A DNA stretch of 45,094 bases from Acidobacteriota bacterium (GCA_025463165.1 JAOBAU010000254.1:1-45094), one strand, 5' to 3'. Counted from the first letter of the stretch, positions 1-8,380 are shown. The notes: generated from the sequence alone by a model not told the origin. Numbers and translations: made by a program.

Positions 1-676
1 CCTCCCGTCGCAAGCCGAGCGCGCGCACTTTGTACAACTCGACGCCGGGATGCAGCCACGGTCCGTCCGAGCCGAAGATGATCTTGTGTGCGCCGGCGCG
101 CGCGACCGCTTCGCGCAGCAGATCGAATCGCCGGACGCCCGACGTGTCGGTGTAGACGTTCGGATGGCGCGCGACGATGTCGATGAGCGAGCGCTGCGCC
201 GCCCAGTCGTCGCCGAAGCTGCCGAGGTGCGGAATGATGAAGTTGACGTCGCGATACTCGGTGGCGAGCAGCTCGACCGAAGAGACTTCGCCCATCACGT
301 CATAGAGAATCGGCAGCGACCACGCGCGCGCCGCGTCGCAGATCTCGCGCGAGATGCGCGCATCGTGTCGATGCACTTTGATGCCGCGAAAGCCGTGCTC
401 TTCGACCGCTTCCGCGATCAGCTCCGCGATGCGTCCGCGATCGCGCTCGGCATTCACGAACGCCAGTCCGACGTAACGTTGCGGCGATCGGCGGACGATC
501 GCCGCAACTTCACGATTGGCGGTGCGATAGTCGGAATGAAACGCCGCCATCAGCACGGTGCGATCGATGCCGGCCGCCGTCGCGCGGCGCGCGTAATCGG
601 AAAGCCGGGCCGCGGTGTCCCACGGCCCGGTGAATCCACCTCCGCTGCCGGCGTGGCAGTGACCATCGACGATCAT
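1..676 (-). CDS. Amidohydrolase (TIM-barrel metal-dependent hydrolase), 3' end outside window
   Basis: Own translation of the minus strand from ATG at 676: MIVDGHCHAGSGGGFTGPWDTAARLSDYARRATAAGIDRTVLMAAFHSDYRTANREV...GFRGIKVHRHDARI...YRDVNFIIPHLGSFGDDW...HPNVYTDTSG...KIIFGSDGPWLHPGVEL. Typical amidohydrolase_2 motifs (DGHCH, HLG, FGSDGPW). Absent from the ORF track because it runs off the window. Confidence 0.85.
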   Translation of the reverse strand, partial: MIVDGHCHAGSGGGFTGPWDTAARLSDYARRATAAGIDRTVLMAAFHSDYRTANREVAAIVRRSPQRYVGLAFVNAERDRGRIAELIAEAVEEHGFRGIKVHRHDARISREICDAARAWSLPILYDVMGEVSSVELLATEYRDVNFIIPHLGSFGDDWAAQRSLIDIVARHPNVYTDTSGVRRFDLLREAVARAGAHKIIFGSDGPWLHPGVELYKVRALGLRRE

Positions 677-2187
677 CGCCGCTGCCGCGCCAGCTGCTGC
701 TGCATGAGGATAGCCGGCTCCGTTGCATCGATTTCGCGACTCGAGGTCGTGACGGGAGTCGTGCCGAGGTCGACGCCGGTGACGGCGTGGTACGCGTGGA
801 TGTAGCGCTGAACCTCGGTCTTCCAGAACTGCGCCCAGCCGCGCGCTTCGTTCTCGTTGTCCGCCACGCTCCAGTCGCCATAGCGGATGGACAGCAGGAT
901 CTGTTCGCCATGCACCGCGAGGTCGCGGAAGTGCGTGACCGACGTATCGGTCCAGCCCATGAGGCGTTTCATCGAATCGACGACGCCCATCCACGGCTCG
1001 GCGTACGGCACCATCTGGCGCGCACCGAGGAACTCGCGCATCTCGCGGCGCGAGAGAATCCACTGCTGCATCATCATTTCGGCGCGTGCCATCCACGTCA
1101 GGCCGCGGAACTGGTTGTGCGCTCCCTCGGCGAGGATGAGATGCACTTCGCGCAGCGCGTTGAGCAGCGGGAAACCGTCGGCGCGAATGGTGAGATTCGA
1201 CGCCCGCTCGTAAAAGATCGCGGCGTGATGCAGCAGCGCGTGGAATGCGGCGAGGAACTTCGAACGATCGTCGGCGACGCGCATCGTCGGCACCGCTTTT
1301 CCGATCAGCGAGAGGCCGTACTCGTGACGATATTCATACGCGCGGCGCGCGACCGTCAGCCGATGATCCTCATCCTGCACGTAGCCCCAGAAGATGTGCG
1401 ACAGCGGCCGCAGCGGATGCATCTCGAGGTTCGCGAGCGGCTCGCGATCGCCGGGACCGCGCTTGTTCTGGAAGCGAAGGCTGATGGCGTTGATCGCCTG
1501 CACCATCATCCCGTGCTCGTGCCAGAGCGACCAGTAAAGCTCGATGGCGCACGGATGCAGGACCTTGTCTGCGATGGGCGCGCTGCTGCAGAACGGACTC
1601 GGACCGATGTCGTTGAAGGCCTCGGTGATTCGATGGAGGTACGGCAGCATGCCTTCCGTGTCTTTGAGGTAGTTCTTCAGATCCTCGACGAGGTCGCGCT
1701 CCACGCCGAGACCGAGCCGGCCATCCTCGACTTCATAGCCGGTGAGGTCGAACACCGTTGCACAGCGATCCATCAGGAACACTTCGGTCGCGGCTTTCAG
1801 GACTTTGTAGCTGTCGACGCCGTTCAGCAGATGCGGCGGGAGCTTGGCGTGACCCGCGGCATCGGGACAGAGGATGCTGTTGACGTATTTCTCGTAGACG
1901 CTGAAGGACAGCGCCTGCGTGCCTTTGTGAATCGCCGCCCAGAGACCCTGCGCCGTCGTGTGGCCGATCGACGATTCCTGCAGATTCACATCGACCGTAC
2001 CGATGCGCAGCGGCGTTGCCGGCCAGGACTTGATGTCAACGGTCTCGTGCTCCTCGCTGCCGGCGACGCCGAAGTTTGCCGGTTTGGGCTCGGCAAGGTC
2101 AACGACCGGTGGCGTGGGAGAAGGGTTGTCGGGATCGTTCACCGGAGGAAGCGGTCCGCCGACGGTGTCATCTGATTTCTTAGGCAT
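673..2187 (-). CDS. Hypothetical protein (504 aa), operon member
   Basis: Long ORF MPKKSDDTVGGPLPPVNDPDNPS...; ATGA overlap with the downstream amidohydrolase and 21-nt gap to the upstream gene. No family recognised. Confidence 0.8.
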   Translation of the reverse strand: MPKKSDDTVGGPLPPVNDPDNPSPTPPVVDLAEPKPANFGVAGSEEHETVDIKSWPATPLRIGTVDVNLQESSIGHTTAQGLWAAIHKGTQALSFSVYEKYVNSILCPDAAGHAKLPPHLLNGVDSYKVLKAATEVFLMDRCATVFDLTGYEVEDGRLGLGVERDLVEDLKNYLKDTEGMLPYLHRITEAFNDIGPSPFCSSAPIADKVLHPCAIELYWSLWHEHGMMVQAINAISLRFQNKRGPGDREPLANLEMHPLRPLSHIFWGYVQDEDHRLTVARRAYEYRHEYGLSLIGKAVPTMRVADDRSKFLAAFHALLHHAAIFYERASNLTIRADGFPLLNALREVHLILAEGAHNQFRGLTWMARAEMMMQQWILSRREMREFLGARQMVPYAEPWMGVVDSMKRLMGWTDTSVTHFRDLAVHGEQILLSIRYGDWSVADNENEARGWAQFWKTEVQRYIHAYHAVTGVDLGTTPVTTSSREIDATEPAILMQQQLARQRR

Positions 2188-2208
2188 GTGTGTCTCCTTT
2201 TCTTCATG

Positions 2209-3516
2209 TCAGGCGGCGAGTGCCGGCGTGTGAGTGCGCGGAAGTCGGGTGTCGCGCAACGAGCGCATCAGCGCCCACCGCGTCAGTAACTGCGCGACGA
2301 CGCGACTCTCGCGTTCCGGTGTGAGCAGACGATCCTGTTTCGCCTGTCCGAGCACCGCGAGCGCAAGGGTCGGCGAGAGCGACTGCAGGCCGTCGACGAG
2401 CGGGCGCGATTCGCGGAAGATGCGGCGCAGCCGCGCGGGCGTTCGTTGCGCGAGCTCGAATGCGCTCGCGAACGGACGTCCTTTCATCGCCGCCGGCCGA
2501 TGCTCCGCCAGCAGGCGAAGGAACTCCGACATCGTCGCTTCGAGTGCGGCGATGATTCGCAGGCGCTCCGCATCGAGGCCGGTGCGTGGATAGAACGATT
2601 CCCACATCCGCACCAGCTGCCCCCACTGCGGATCGGGATGCAGCATCGCACCCGCGGCAGCGGAGAGCTTCACGCGAATCCACGGGAACGGATGAGGGTC
2701 CTCGGTGTCGAGACGGAAGACGATGGCGCGCGGCAGGCTGACGACGTTCATCAGTCCCTGCGTCGCCGCGACGCCGAGCTTGCCGACCGACCAGAAATCG
2801 GCGGCGATCTCCGAGATCCAGCGCTCCCACAACTGCCATGCGATGCGCTGTTCGGCGGGACTTTGCCGCTGCTTCGCCTTCAGGTCCGTGCGCAATCGCG
2901 GCAGAAGATCGAGCAGCGCCGCCGCCTGATGTCCGACTTCGTGTACGAGCGACGATGCCACGCCGCTGCCGACCATCCGTTCGCGCGGCATCCGAATGAC
3001 GGCGACAGGATTGTCGCCGCCGCCCGGCAAGCGCGCGCGGACGCGGCGGATTGCGGCGCCGTGTCCGCGGTCGAGATAGGTGATGACCGGCGGGCGCGGG
3101 AAGGAATCATCGCTGCCGATCGCCAGCGCGTCATCGGCAACGACGTCGAGACCGCCGAGCCAGACGCCGTTGCCGACTTCGGCGCGCAGATTCAGCGCGT
3201 CCGCGAAGATGTCGAACTGCGTCAGCGCGACGTTGAAGCGCAGTTTCAGAATTGCGAAGCGGTGCTGCGCGTGCGCCGCGCTCGCGCCGCGTCCCTCCGG
3301 CGTGCGCAGCCACTGAATGTAATCCTTGATGCGGTGACGCAGCCGGCGCCGGCCGTCGATCAGATAGTGCTCGATGGCGTGCGCCGCCTGGTCGGAGATC
3401 CGCGCCGCGGAGACCATCGGCATCGCCAGTGCGAACGGCTGCACGTTGGCGAGCCTCGTCTGCAGCGCGCGCGCTTCGAGCGTCAGCGTTGCGGCGACGT
3501 AAGAGGGGAGCGCCAT
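2209..3516 (-). CDS. Putative HEXXH zinc metallopeptidase-like protein (435 aa)
   Basis: SSLVHEVGHQAAALLDLLPRL contains HEVGH; a downstream EIAADFW could supply a third ligand. Start codon shares a base with the preceding stop (TGATG). Confidence 0.75.
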   Translation of the reverse strand: MALPSYVAATLTLEARALQTRLANVQPFALAMPMVSAARISDQAAHAIEHYLIDGRRRLRHRIKDYIQWLRTPEGRGASAAHAQHRFAILKLRFNVALTQFDIFADALNLRAEVGNGVWLGGLDVVADDALAIGSDDSFPRPPVITYLDRGHGAAIRRVRARLPGGGDNPVAVIRMPRERMVGSGVASSLVHEVGHQAAALLDLLPRLRTDLKAKQRQSPAEQRIAWQLWERWISEIAADFWSVGKLGVAATQGLMNVVSLPRAIVFRLDTEDPHPFPWIRVKLSAAAGAMLHPDPQWGQLVRMWESFYPRTGLDAERLRIIAALEATMSEFLRLLAEHRPAAMKGRPFASAFELAQRTPARLRRIFRESRPLVDGLQSLSPTLALAVLGQAKQDRLLTPERESRVVAQLLTRWALMRSLRDTRLPRTHTPALAA

Positions 3517-4082
3517 CAGAATGCTCCGAGGATTTGCAGACGGTTTCCGGAGCGGATCCAGCGGCCCGACATCGGCCGTGGCGACACGGGACGGACGAGG
3601 CCGGGCGCATATTCGCGCGCGGCCTGTATGACGGCGCCGCGAGCGACGCGCATCGGATCGGCGTACGGCGGCGCGGAGCCGGCGTTCTTCGCCGCGACGC
3701 AGGCGAGCCGGACGAACTGCTTCGCCACTTCGAGCTCCTGCTCCGCTTCCGGCAGCGTTTCGTCGACTTCGAAGAGCTTCGTGGCCATCGAGCCGAGCTT
3801 GCCGCCGATCTGCGCACCGATCGGGCCGCCGAAGAATCCGCCGGCGACCTTTCCCGCGATCGGAAGCAGCGTCTTCGCGAGCGGCTTGATGAACTTTCCC
3901 GCCCCTTTGAGCAGCTTCCTGAAGAACTCTTCGAGCTCTGCTTCGCCCGAGAGCGTCAGCAGTTCGTGGGCGAGCTCGAGCTCCTGTTCCTGCGACATTT
4001 CACCGGTGAATTCGCGATCTTCCCACTGCGTTTCATAGGCTTCGGAATCGTATGTTCTGAGTGTGCGATCGAGATCGTGCAT
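3516..4082 (-). CDS. Acidic N-terminus / glycine-zipper protein, paralogue 1
   Basis: MHDLDRTLRTYDSEAYETQWEDREFTGEMSQEQELELAHELLTLSGEAELEEFFRKLLKGAGKFIKP...GKVAGGFFGGPIGAQIGGKLGSMATKLFE...ELEVAKQFVRLACVAAKNA...GRWIRSGNRLQILGAF. Start chosen at internal Met (ORF track begins at 4100). Confidence 0.75.
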   Translation of the reverse strand: MHDLDRTLRTYDSEAYETQWEDREFTGEMSQEQELELAHELLTLSGEAELEEFFRKLLKGAGKFIKPLAKTLLPIAGKVAGGFFGGPIGAQIGGKLGSMATKLFEVDETLPEAEQELEVAKQFVRLACVAAKNAGSAPPYADPMRVARGAVIQAAREYAPGLVRPVSPRPMSGRWIRSGNRLQILGAF

Positions 4083-4096
4083 GGCGTTCTCCTTCC

Positions 4097-4765
4097 TCAC
4101 AGTCCGACGACGACGATGCGGCGGCCGCGGCGAAACCAGCGGCCGGTCGCGGGGCGCGTGGCGTTGCCGGGACAGCTGCCGCCGCCGAGGCTCGTGACGA
4201 GGCCGGGTGCGTGACGCTGCGCGGCGCTGGCGAGCGCTCGCTGTGCGGTCAGCTGCGGATTGCCGTTGCGCGGTGCGGATGCGAGGTTGTTCGCCGCGGT
4301 GGTGGAGAGACGGACGAACTGCTTCGCCATCTCGAACTCGCGGTCTTCGCCGCTCATCCCTTCGAGCTCGAGCCCGAAGATGGAGCTGGCGAGATTACCG
4401 GCCTGCGTTCCGATCTGACCGCCGCGGTTGCCGCCGAAGTAGCTGCCGATCGCTTCGCCGCCGAGCGGCAGCGCTTTCTTCGCCGTGTCGCGAAGCAGCC
4501 CTTTCAGCTTCTGGCCGGCCGGCGTGTTCAGCACGCCTTTGACGCCTTTCAGCAGCTTGCCGAAAAATTCGTCCAGCTCACGCTCGCCGGAGATCGAAAG
4601 CAGTTCGGCCGCGAGCTCCAGCTCGCGATCTTCGCCCTCGTATTCGTGCTGGCTCTCGTGCTGGCTTTCGTAGCTCTCGTACTGGCTTTCGCCTTCGCCT
4701 TCCCCGAGAAACTCGAACTCCCCTTCGAACTCGTTTGTCTCGAATGCGTTCTCGTTCACGTTCAT
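4097..4765 (-). CDS. Acidic N-terminus / glycine-zipper protein, paralogue 2
   Basis: MNVNENAFETNEFEGEFEFLGEGEGESQYESYESQHESQHEYEGEDRELELAAELLSISGERELDEFFGKLLKGVKG...GGEAIGSYFGGNRGGQIGTQAGNLASSIFGLELEGM...EFEMAKQFVRLSTTAANN...GRWFRRGRRIVVVGL. Collinear with paralogue 1. Start chosen at MNVNE (ORF track begins at 4792). Confidence 0.75.
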   Translation of the reverse strand: MNVNENAFETNEFEGEFEFLGEGEGESQYESYESQHESQHEYEGEDRELELAAELLSISGERELDEFFGKLLKGVKGVLNTPAGQKLKGLLRDTAKKALPLGGEAIGSYFGGNRGGQIGTQAGNLASSIFGLELEGMSGEDREFEMAKQFVRLSTTAANNLASAPRNGNPQLTAQRALASAAQRHAPGLVTSLGGGSCPGNATRPATGRWFRRGRRIVVVGL

Positions 4766-5007
4766 GTGTGTCCTCCGTTTCGGAGTGCACATGGAGCAAC
4801 GGCAGAGCCACCGTGACTTACTGATTTATCGTTGCTTCAGGTGAACGTAAGTTCGTAGGGAGGGATGGAAGGGCATTGCGGGGTGAAGATTGGTTCGCCT
4901 TTCTTCCGCTAAAGAATAAGAACGTAATGCCCGTCACGGCCGTGCGACGTTTCGGAACCGAATGTGGCTTCCATCCGATTCTGAAAAACCGTGGAGGAAG
5001 AAACGAC

Positions 5008-5622
5008 ATGTCTCATTCGATTCGCACGCTCCTGCTCTCGCTCGTCGCCGTCGCTCTCGCTGCACCCGTTTTTGCGTACAACGTCGTCAACACATCGTGG
5101 ACGGTCCAGTGCCTCTTCAGCACGAGCTGCAGCGTCACCGTGACGGACTACGTTGCGGAATTCGCCGTCAGCGGAGGCAGCGGCAATGGCCGATTGCAGT
5201 CTCGCGTGTATCAGGGCCAGCCAGGTTCCACGGCCGCGGGCAAGTGGATCTACGAATACCGCATCAACCTCGGGCCGGTCGGCGGCATCGTGAATGTCCC
5301 GTACGCCGACCAGCTGGCGATCGCGTCGTGGGGAACGGTTCGCCAATACGACTACAACTCCGACAGCGTCGCCACCGATCATGTGTTCAACATCACCAGC
5401 GGCGGCCTCGGCACGAAGGCCGTGACGTCCGCGTTTCTCTCGGCGCCGTGGTCGTACTTCGTGTTGAGCAATCCCGTCTACGCCGGCAACTTTCCGGGCG
5501 GCGGCGAGAGCAGCTATTTCTTCGGCCTCGTCTCCGACCAGGCGCCGGTCCTGCGGACGGTTTGGGTTCACACCGACAGCGGATGGGTGTCCATGACCGG
5601 TTACGCGCCGCCGCTTCCGTAA
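5008..5622 (+). CDS. Secreted hypothetical protein (about 204 aa) with signal peptide
   Basis: [31 protein letters not shown]: classical signal peptide; GGAGG about 10 nt upstream of ATG at 5008. Confidence 0.75.
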
Positions 5623-6641
5623 TGCCGATTTGCGAGTGCGGATGCGCGGGTGTCGCCGCGCATCCGCTGCTCCCTCAACCCGCTCGCTTTTGACGCAAGT
5701 GCGTCGAGCACCGCGCGGCCGACCGCTTCGACGACCGGCACGACGACCGAGTTGCCGAACTGTTTGTAGGCCTGCGTGTCGGAGACGACGATCTTGAAGG
5801 AGTCGGGATAGCCCATCAGCCGCGCGCATTCACGCGGCGTGAGTCGGCGCGGAGTGGCGGCGCCGCGTCGCGGGATGAGGATCTCGGAACCGTCTTTGTA
5901 GTAACGCGCGCTGAGCGTGCGCGTGATGCCGTCGAGCTTCGCGAGTCCGAAGCCGAAGCCGTTCCCGGCCGCCTGATGTTTGCGCGCGTAATCCTGCAGG
6001 TACTGCCACAGCTTGTCGCTCAGGCCGTACTTCGCGTCGACGCCTTTCTGCAGGATGTCGCGCAGCGGCGGCGAGTCGTTCGTCCAGCGCGGAAAGTCGA
6101 ACGCGCGCGGCTCGCGAAAGCCGACGATGAAGATTCGTTCGCGATGCTGCGGCACGACGTGCTTCGCATCGAGCACCTGAAAGTGGACGTCGTATCCAAG
6201 GTCTTCTTTCAGCGTGCGATGGATGACTTCGAAGGTGCGGCCCTTGTCGTGCGTGCGGAGGTTGCGGACGTTCTCGAGGATGAACGCGCACGGGCGATGT
6301 GCGTCAACGATGCGCGCGATCTCGAAGAAGAGATTTCCCTGCGTCGGATCGGCGAAACCGTGCGGACGGCCGAGACTGTTCTTCTTCGACACGCCGGAGA
6401 TCGAGAATGGCTGACAGGGAAACCCGGCGGTGAGGATGTCGTGCCGCGGGATGTCGGCCGCGTCGATCTGACGAATGTCGCCCGCCGGCTCGTCGCCGAA
6501 ATTCGCGGCGTAAGTCTGTCGCGCGAAGCGATCCCAGTCGGACGAAAAGACGCACGTTCCGCCGAGCCGCTCGAGCGCGATCCGGAAGCCGCCGATGCCT
6601 GAGAAGAGGTCGATGAAACGAAAGGGACGGGTGGGTGACAT
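5601..6641 (-). CDS. dcm: DNA (cytosine-5)-methyltransferase, Dcm/M.EcoRII-like
   Basis: [18 protein letters not shown] (motif I), [12 protein letters not shown] (motif IV), ENVRNL (motif VI), [11 protein letters not shown] (motif VIII), [12 protein letters not shown] (motif X). Confidence 0.95.
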
Positions 6642-6670
6642 CCGTCGATCAGAATACCGCGAGAAACTCG

Positions 6671-6714
6671 CCCCTCACCCGGCCTTTGGCCACGCTCTCC
6701 CGGAGGGCAAGGGA
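6671..6714 (+). repeat. Dispersed palindromic repeat, copy A
   Basis: cccctcacccggcctttggccacgctctcccggagggcaaggga; same architecture as copies B, C and D. Confidence 0.75.
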
Positions 6715-6752
6715 TTTTGCGTCGCTCCACGCCGCGTAGAATCGCGGTTGCC

Positions 6753-7169
6753 GTGGTCGACGTCCTTTCTCCCGCGCAGCGCAGGAAGAACATGCAGCGA
6801 ATCCGGTCGAAGGATACGCAGCCGGAGCTGCGCGTGCGGCGGCTCATTCACGCCCTCGGCTATCGCTATCGATTGCACGCGCGCGAGTTACCGGGACGAC
6901 CCGATCTCGTCTTTCGTTCGCGGCGCAAAGCGATCTTCGTGCATGGCTGTTACTGGCACGTCCACAGTTGCGCGCTCGGTCGCGTGGCGCCGGCGACGAA
7001 TGCGGAATTCTGGCGTGCGAAGCGGCAGAGCAACGTCGATCGCGATCTGCGCAATCTTGCGGCGTTGCGTGATGCAGGATGGCAAACGCTCGTGATCTGG
7101 CAGTGTGAGATTGCGGACGCCGACGCGCTCACGCAGCGCATTCGCGAGTTTCTCGAGGACGCTCGTTGA
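6753..7169 (+). CDS. vsr: Very short patch repair (Vsr) endonuclease
   Basis: VDVLSPAQRRKNMQRIRSKDTQPELRVRRLIHALGYRYRLHARELPGRPDLVFRSRRKAIFVHGCYWHVHSC...FWRAKRQSNVDRD: canonical Vsr motifs. Start assigned to GTG at 6753 (ORF track starts 6717). Confidence 0.93.
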   Translation: MVDVLSPAQRRKNMQRIRSKDTQPELRVRRLIHALGYRYRLHARELPGRPDLVFRSRRKAIFVHGCYWHVHSCALGRVAPATNAEFWRAKRQSNVDRDLRNLAALRDAGWQTLVIWQCEIADADALTQRIREFLEDAR

Positions 7170-8380
7170 CGCTGTCGCTCGCGTCGGTCTTCGCGTCGGT
7201 GGCGACGAAGCGGCTGGCGCTCGTCGATCTGCCGAAGCGCGGGTCGCATCAGCACGAGTTGAATGGCTCGTCGCGCCTGCGGGAGTTTTTCGGGAAAGAG
7301 AAAGTTCAGGGCGAGCTGCAGTGGCATCGCTTCGCCGAGGATGCGGAGCCCGCGCATGCCGCGGGGACGTTCACGTTTTACGACTCGCGCGCGAGGAGCG
7401 CCGATCGCACGGGACGGAGCGAGTGGCGGATGTACTACACCGGCGCGTTCCTCGAGCGCGCCGCTCCGGGCGATCTGCTCGTGCTCGCCCGCGCGCGCGG
7501 CGGCGACATTCACGCGCTCGTGTTCGAAGAGCATTCGAGCTGGATGCGCTCCGCGCGCGTGCTGTTCGATATCGATGCGAACGCGACGCTCTTCCGCGTG
7601 TCCGGCGAGGAGGAGCTCGATCGCCGCGCGCTCGAATTCGTCTACGCACGCATTCTCGAAGAGCTGCAGCTCGACGTCGTGCTGCCTTCCACTCCCGCTC
7701 ACGAAACGATCGCGGAACGCGAGCTCGCTGCAGCGGTGAAAGCGGGACTGAAGTTTCCGACCACCGCGCGAATGGCTGCCGTCGCGCGCGAGCTCGCGGG
7801 CGTTGAATCGGCCGACGCCGACGAGACGCTGCTTCGCTGGCTCGAAGCTGAAGAGCGAATCTTTCGCGCCGCCGAACGGCAGCTCGTCGACGTGAAGCTG
7901 CGCGCCGGCTTCACCGACGTCGACGACTTCGTCAGCTATTCGCTGTCGGTGCAGAATCGCCGCAAGTCGCGCATGGGACTGGCGCTGCAAAACCATCTCA
8001 CCGAACTGTTCCGCGCGAACGCCATCCGGTTCTCGGCGCAGGCGTACACCGAGAACCGGAAGAAGCCCGACTTTCTCTTCCCGGGAGAGTCGGAGTATCA
8101 CGACGCGAATTTCGATTCGTCGCGTCTGGCGATGCTCGCCGCGAAGTCATCGTGCAAAGATCGCTGGCCGCAAATCCTGCCGGAGGCTGATCGGATTCCG
8201 ATCAAGCATCTCTGCACGCTCGAAGCGTCGATCTCCGAGGCGCAGACGGAGGAGATGACGCGGAAGCAGGTCGTGCTCGTTCTTCCGCACGCGCTGCACG
8301 CGACCTACTCCGCATCACAGCGCGCCACACTACTCACGCTGCAGCAATTCATCGAGCAGCTCCGCCAACTCCAGCGCTAA
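7166..8380 (+). CDS. Type IIE restriction endonuclease, EcoRII-like (B3-like effector domain plus EcoRII-C catalytic domain)
   Basis: TTG start overlapping the vsr stop (TTGA). N-terminus GSHQHELNGSS...TFTFYDSRARSADRTGRSEWRM resembles EcoRII-N. C-terminus NRKKPDFLFPGESEYHDANFDSSRLAMLAAKSSCKDRWPQILPEADRIPIKHLCTLEASISEAQTEEM closely follows the EcoRII/PspGI catalytic core. Confidence 0.93.
   Translation: MTLSLASVFASVATKRLALVDLPKRGSHQHELNGSSRLREFFGKEKVQGELQWHRFAEDAEPAHAAGTFTFYDSRARSADRTGRSEWRMYYTGAFLERAAPGDLLVLARARGGDIHALVFEEHSSWMRSARVLFDIDANATLFRVSGEEELDRRALEFVYARILEELQLDVVLPSTPAHETIAERELAAAVKAGLKFPTTARMAAVARELAGVESADADETLLRWLEAEERIFRAAERQLVDVKLRAGFTDVDDFVSYSLSVQNRRKSRMGLALQNHLTELFRANAIRFSAQAYTENRKKPDFLFPGESEYHDANFDSSRLAMLAAKSSCKDRWPQILPEADRIPIKHLCTLEASISEAQTEEMTRKQVVLVLPHALHATYSASQRATLLTLQQFIEQLRQLQR

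Follow-up and report, generated by a model that had tools for sequence, protein, structure and literature searches.

A sigma-54-linked glycine-zipper operon in an Acidobacteriota bacterium as a possible minimal copy of a horizontally spread effector module

The first 4.8 kb of a 45,094-nt stretch of DNA from an Acidobacteriota bacterium (GCA_025463165.1, JAOBAU010000254.1:1-45094; hereafter the window, from whose first letter operon coordinates are counted) are occupied, according to open reading frame (ORF) calling, by five minus-strand genes in one operon, which encode two small glycine-zipper proteins (zip1 and zip2), a metallopeptidase-like protein (mp), a protein of 504 amino acids (aa) termed p504, and an amidohydrolase. 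We tentatively read this operon as a minimal version of a self-contained module that has spread horizontally, namely a sigma-54-switched effector module in which the zippers serve as carriers. A module of this kind is favoured because the cargo proteins encoded by other copies have an effector- and endolysin-like range, lack an evident signal peptide and share their N-terminus with the zippers, and we rank it ahead of programmed lysis, a structural assembly, a biosynthetic or peptide-maturation pathway, and the cargo of an injection system. There is a substantial possibility that it represents an undescribed system, present in about 13 phyla, in which a zipper carrier, a gluzincin-like maturation peptidase, a p504 scaffold and a sigma-54 switch would package or deliver lytic effectors without a known secretion machine.

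The most upstream gene, zip1 (4097..4765, minus strand), encodes 222 aa with an acidic/aromatic N-terminus, a glycine-zipper core and a GRWFRRG end, and its family is confined to this module. Its longest ORF starts at 4792, although 4765 is the likelier start because 4792 lies too near the promoter-like site at 4796..4810 discussed below. The paralogue zip2 (3516..4082, minus strand) encodes 188 aa with the N-terminus MHDLDRT; an alternative start is GTG 4100, and the zipper-family start is MHDxDRT. It overlaps by 1 nt with mp (2209..3516, minus strand, 435 aa), which is followed after a gap of 21 nt by p504 (673..2187, minus strand), an all-helical core-family protein. The p504 gene in turn overlaps by 4 nt with the amidohydrolase gene (1..676, minus strand, start at 676; PF04909 match, E 4e-20), whose C-terminal end lies on another contig, C355. 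An exact 127-bp overlap joins the two contigs and completes the amidohydrolase at 259 aa, and on C355, in the same locus, a gene for a 468-aa sigma-54 activator is convergent with the amidohydrolase gene, their 3′ ends overlapping. A sequence-only reading of the window had already proposed a five-gene operon, which holds in that all five minus-strand ORFs are present, with short gaps or overlaps, in an order that recurs across phyla; its amidohydrolase is likewise real, and the correction concerns its extent, the gene being cut by the contig end. Chance clustering of the five genes was ruled out by the recurrence of their order in many genera and phyla, and contamination by synteny and by tetranucleotide composition (r 0.97-0.98 for the contig against the rest of the assembly, 0.95 for the operon).

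The sigma-54 (-24/-12) promoter-like site upstream of zip1, TGGCTCTGCCGTTGC (4796..4810, minus strand), is the sole match to TGGCNCN5TTGC / TGGCNCNNNNNTTGC on either strand of the 45 kb, over which 0.5 matches are expected by chance. Allowing up to one mismatch, 43 of 60 loci show a -24/-12 site upstream of the first zipper, compared with 2.3% of control windows; the contrast is large, although the p-value computed for it is too small because the loci are related and the controls come from the same loci without matching for intergenic DNA. Where the contig covers enough of the locus for a judgement, the site is present in 32 of the 37 loci that have the activator versus three of the eight that do not, and both are missing from the four Streptomyces copies judged. 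The Streptomyces copies L061-L066 belong to this type without activator or site, and inspection by eye showed a LuxR-type ATPase regulator downstream in L061. Like the activators of the PspF/RtcR/NtrC class, the module activator has an AAA+ sigma-54 interaction domain, a lid and a Fis-type helix-turn-helix (HTH) domain, whereas the roughly 130 aa of its N-terminal region match nothing in Pfam. Actinobacteria mostly lack sigma-54, and sigma-54 (RpoN) genes directly adjoin five loci, namely four actinobacterial copies and that of Palleronia (L053, L054, L057, L058 and L056; one Pfam-checked). Judged from sequence, the predicted -24/-12 promoter and its cognate activator would place the operon in a sigma-54 regulon, and the co-expression of the five genes proposed by the earlier reading is supported by the conserved gene order and the single predicted promoter.

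Using mp as the query against one genome per species, 65 loci in 13 phyla were found, with the zippers directly upstream of mp and p504 directly downstream in every locus whose contig reaches that far. Within the family of a Janthinobacterium carrier, 32 of 246 genomes have zip, mp and p504 together and the remaining genomes have none of the three, a count that leaves out two marginal matches (mp in G384, E 3e-4; zip in G431, E 9e-4). The neighbourhood analysis called for by the sequence-only reading thus shows zippers travelling with mp and p504, rather than usually occurring without these partners. In 33 carrier genomes the zipper profile matches the module only, apart from one weak glycine-rich match (G085:C41, E 3e-4), and p504 was found in three genomes of an even draw of 274 of the class. 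Horizontal spread is the simplest account of this distribution, because the module was not found in 60 relatives of the host, because the module or a distant relative of it lies on five megaplasmids (conjugative and mobilizable ones being among the carriers), and because the Nitrosomonas Nm132 copy nests inside the Methylococcaceae copies in a tree whose deep branches are unresolved. A phage origin was rejected, since mp and p504 gave no match in phage records.

A divergent, "type II" copy on a plasmid of Paraburkholderia PGU19 (L123:9451-18907) encodes, in order, two acidic glycine-rich proteins, an mp homologue which retains HEVSH and ExxxD (profile E 3e-19), two further genes without assigned function, an M20 peptidase and the amidohydrolase. 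The two extra genes, which stand in the place of p504, match it at E 0.07 and 0.7, at most a hint of homology. That zipper, mp and amidohydrolase are kept in the same order suggests that these three are the oldest part of the module and that p504 was possibly replaced in this copy.

That the two small proteins are paralogues, as the earlier reading had stated, is clear from a single family profile built from 29 sequences, which matches zip1 and zip2 at 256 and 190 bits, respectively. Both have an ELLxxSGExELxxFFxKLLKG block, a glycine-rich core and a GRWxRxG end. The membrane-active core attributed to them fares less well: the glycine-zipper spacing is strong (6.8 GxxxG motifs in zippers versus 2.8 in shuffled sequences), whereas just 1% of zippers attain the hydropathy of 1.6 that is usual for transmembrane segments, and a classical transmembrane pore was rejected on this ground. 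The suggestion of an N-terminal sorting part is partly borne out by an acidic-aromatic stretch, which marks 66 of 76 zippers and, among the cargo proteins of the peptidoglycan-binding type, 9 of 22, compared with 18 of 371 background genes. Outside the module, likeness to C19orf12-like and PdsO glycine-zipper proteins is weak, below the curated cut-offs and limited to the glycine-rich stretch. More generally, the 29 zippers, 36 mp proteins and 35 p504 proteins gave no convincing Pfam match, except for an Ig-like CarboxypepD_reg domain in the p504 family, and searches of NCBIfam, PHROGs, PADLOC and PDB sequences were empty or trivial.

In mp, HEVGH (residues 192-196; 2929..2943, minus strand) is followed after 39 residues by E236-xxx-D240 (2797..2811, minus strand), a putative third zinc ligand motif, and H192, E193, H196, E236 and D240 are invariant in an alignment of 36 sequences; the zinc-protease motif noted from the sequence is therefore of gluzincin type. 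Of 66 mp ORFs, 64 have the HExxH and ExxxD pattern; the others are L062, truncated where its contig ends, and L069, a divergent copy in which the strict pattern found no match. In the gluzincin layout of thermolysin, an HExxH helix is followed by a Glu helix with ExxxD, and an AlphaFold2 model of mp (pLDDT 89.3) shows the same local order, with two strands, the HEVGH helix and a later helix carrying SExxxD. The protein differs from known gluzincins in being mostly helical, in its length of 435 aa, in having two strands before the active-site helix, and in the lack of a match in the PDB by sequence or by whole fold (Foldseek, best E 0.06).

The model of p504 is all-helical with a moderate pLDDT of 72 and found no fold relatives in the PDB or among viral models, so that the Foldseek comparison advised by the earlier reading returned no PDB match for either protein. 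Four p504-family proteins carry the Ig-like CarboxypepD_reg domain as an optional N-terminal addition, an observation consistent with a structural role for the module, in which the zippers, once matured by mp and p504, would self-assemble into a filament, vesicle coat or surface layer that is held in the envelope by peptidoglycan-binding cargo. The GxxxG enrichment, the several paralogous zipper subunits per locus and a weak similarity of the zippers to glycine-rich stretches of phage tape-measure proteins also fit such an assembly; we nevertheless consider it unlikely, since signal peptides (by eye) and export genes are lacking and the lytic and nuclease-like ends of the cargo would be left unexplained.

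These cargo proteins are encoded by longer copies of the module. In most loci p504 is followed by a pyridoxal phosphate (PLP) enzyme of about 350-380 aa, and next in the longer copies come one or more PG_binding_1 proteins with varying ends (Amidase_2, NlpC/P60, LCAT, OmpA and GIY-YIG, the last resting on one weak Pfam match and otherwise recognized by eye). In some copies separate M74 endopeptidases occupy the cargo position, and the fuller copies also hold an extra zipper. The zipper domain itself can be part of the cargo: in L014 it follows PG-binding and GIY-YIG-like domains on their C-terminal side, and other large proteins encoded at the cargo position also carry it. In two PG-binding/OmpA cargo proteins (L039:9620-11164 and L041:4660-6144), the C-terminal part looks caspase/CHAT-like by eye (HSGS...LHGCN). 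A target range of wall-cutting, lipase and nuclease-like activities is typical of antibacterial effectors.

Inspection by eye shows no evident signal peptide on the same cargo, and its PHROGs matches include phage endolysin families. Both points fit programmed lysis, in which the zippers would be holin-like, the hydrolases endolysin-like, and the producer would lyse on command and release its contents. Small glycine-rich proteins come first in the operon, no immunity genes are evident and the sigma-54 activator could be the switch, so that the module resembles a phage holin-endolysin cassette in its small glycine-rich proteins and its peptidoglycan-binding hydrolases without signal peptides. 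However, the module is chromosomal or megaplasmid-borne, sigma-54 controlled, equipped with extra core proteins and not represented in phage records, and a cassette of this kind was rejected for want of a small transmembrane-helix protein, given the zipper hydropathy. Nuclease-like and OmpA cargo misfit simple lysis, and p504, mp and the metabolic enzymes would have no role; programmed lysis is thus an unlikely explanation, even if it leads the rivals.

The metabolic enzymes would find a place in a biosynthetic or peptide-maturation pathway, in which the zippers are precursors trimmed by mp and an M20 dipeptidase while the PLP enzyme and the amidohydrolase make or modify a small molecule. The PLP-enzyme profile identified 8-amino-7-oxononanoate synthase (AONS), KBL and CAI-1 synthase in the PDB, with E-values down to 4e-36, placing this enzyme, which the window lacks, among the alpha-oxoamine synthases, from whose known members it differs in being embedded in this module. 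L123 encodes an M20 peptidase, L034 and L049 hold a related cluster, and mp has its metallopeptidase motif. However, conservation extends along the entire zipper and leaves no variable core peptide, on which ground the zippers were rejected as precursors of ribosomally synthesized and post-translationally modified peptides; moreover, the zipper domain also occurs fused to large cargo, a transporter is absent and the window copy lacks the AONS-like enzyme. We regard this pathway as improbable.

Conserved N-terminal parts joined to exchangeable catalytic C-terminal domains, and loci that combine peptidase with peptidoglycan-binding modules, are features which the module shares with polymorphic toxin and effector systems (Zhang et al. 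2012, PMC3482391). The exchangeable ends are those of the PG_binding_1 proteins at the same position in other copies, and are not found in the window copy. The module differs from these systems in having no evident immunity genes and in its new carrier (the zipper), peptidase and helical families. Known trafficking domains (of type II, V, VI and VII secretion systems, PVC and MuF) were not detected by Pfam on the core or cargo proteins scanned, and with neither trafficking nor immunity genes evident the module falls outside the classical polymorphic toxins. The range of the cargo also resembles that of effectors of the type VI secretion system (T6SS) or of extracellular contractile injection systems (eCIS), and the module could in principle supply cargo and adaptors to such a machine encoded elsewhere, a gp25-type baseplate gene being present in 19 of 28 carrier genomes. 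This is very improbable and stands last among the alternatives: no gp25-type gene was found in the other 9 carriers, on which ground T6SS/eCIS membership was rejected, and no contractile-injection gene recurs in the module neighbourhoods, where the search for secretion-system genes proposed by the sequence-only reading likewise found none that recurs. In addition, the PVC metallopeptidase has the signature HExxHxxQ (HExxHxxQ-E; PMC3482391), whereas mp has HEVGHQ and no Q at the required place. As for anti-phage defence, a known system was rejected because PADLOC gave no match for zip, mp, p504 or the amidohydrolase, and its matches to the activator are limited to the AAA+/HTH part. No description of the module was found in the open-access PubMed Central literature, and as far as this literature and the searched libraries show, the module appears to be new.

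In the effector module that we favour, the activator would sense a signal, upon which RNA polymerase with sigma-54 would turn the operon on. The zippers and the cargo, both marked by the acidic-aromatic N-terminus, would then be matured by mp and assembled on or by p504; because this N-terminus is common to both, a single handling route is suggested, with mp and p504 as the obvious handlers. The assembled cores would self-associate through their glycine zippers, and neighbouring cells would be attacked with lytic cargo (murein hydrolases, lipase and nuclease-like proteins) that the assemblies carry or release. We infer the processing, assembly, export and targets of the module proteins alike. 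In the window only the carrier part would be left, which would either do without dedicated cargo or use cargo whose genes lie elsewhere. Other contigs of the genome encode three PG_binding_1 proteins.

Several points weigh against an effector module. Its chief weaknesses are the missing immunity genes, no recurrent small gene being found beside the cargo (single-locus genes without assigned function exist at L014:14495-15433 and L056:13113-14348), and the low hydropathy of the zippers, whose cores are not clearly transmembrane. The module contains no conserved export machinery, and the gap in gp25 among carriers counts here as well. The window copy has neither the PLP enzyme, of which one ordinary relative is encoded elsewhere in the genome, nor adjacent cargo, although a cargo-free copy is no refutation of the module. 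The roles of the amidohydrolase and the AONS-like enzyme are left unexplained, and since Foldseek gave no PDB fold, mp is called a metallopeptidase putatively, from its motif and local secondary-structure order. Finally, the host's own assembly, which is 96% complete, gave no Sigma54_DBD match, despite the activator and the -24/-12 site; the gene could lie in the missing part, or else the window copy may be silent.

Beyond the operon, an EcoRII-type restriction-modification set adjoins it (5601-8380), comprising a C5 cytosine methylase (5601-6641, minus strand), Vsr (6717-7169, plus strand) and an EcoRII-C endonuclease (7166-8380, plus strand). The opposite strand upstream of the operon (4876-5622) could encode a secreted protein of about 200 aa with a signal-peptide-like start and no Pfam family.

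Across bacteria of many phyla, three families without a credible relative in the searched libraries thus occur as an obligate set, joined to a defined switch and, in most copies, to wall-cutting cargo that can be swapped. Should the effector reading prove true, the zipper would be a new carrier domain, and possibly mark a new export route, for interbacterial conflict, in which case the module might also be classed among the variants of effector systems. Even if that reading is false, promoter, activator, peptidase motif and N-terminal tag now give the module a testable definition, and since its cultured carriers include Janthinobacterium, Cupriavidus and Streptomyces, it can be tested directly.

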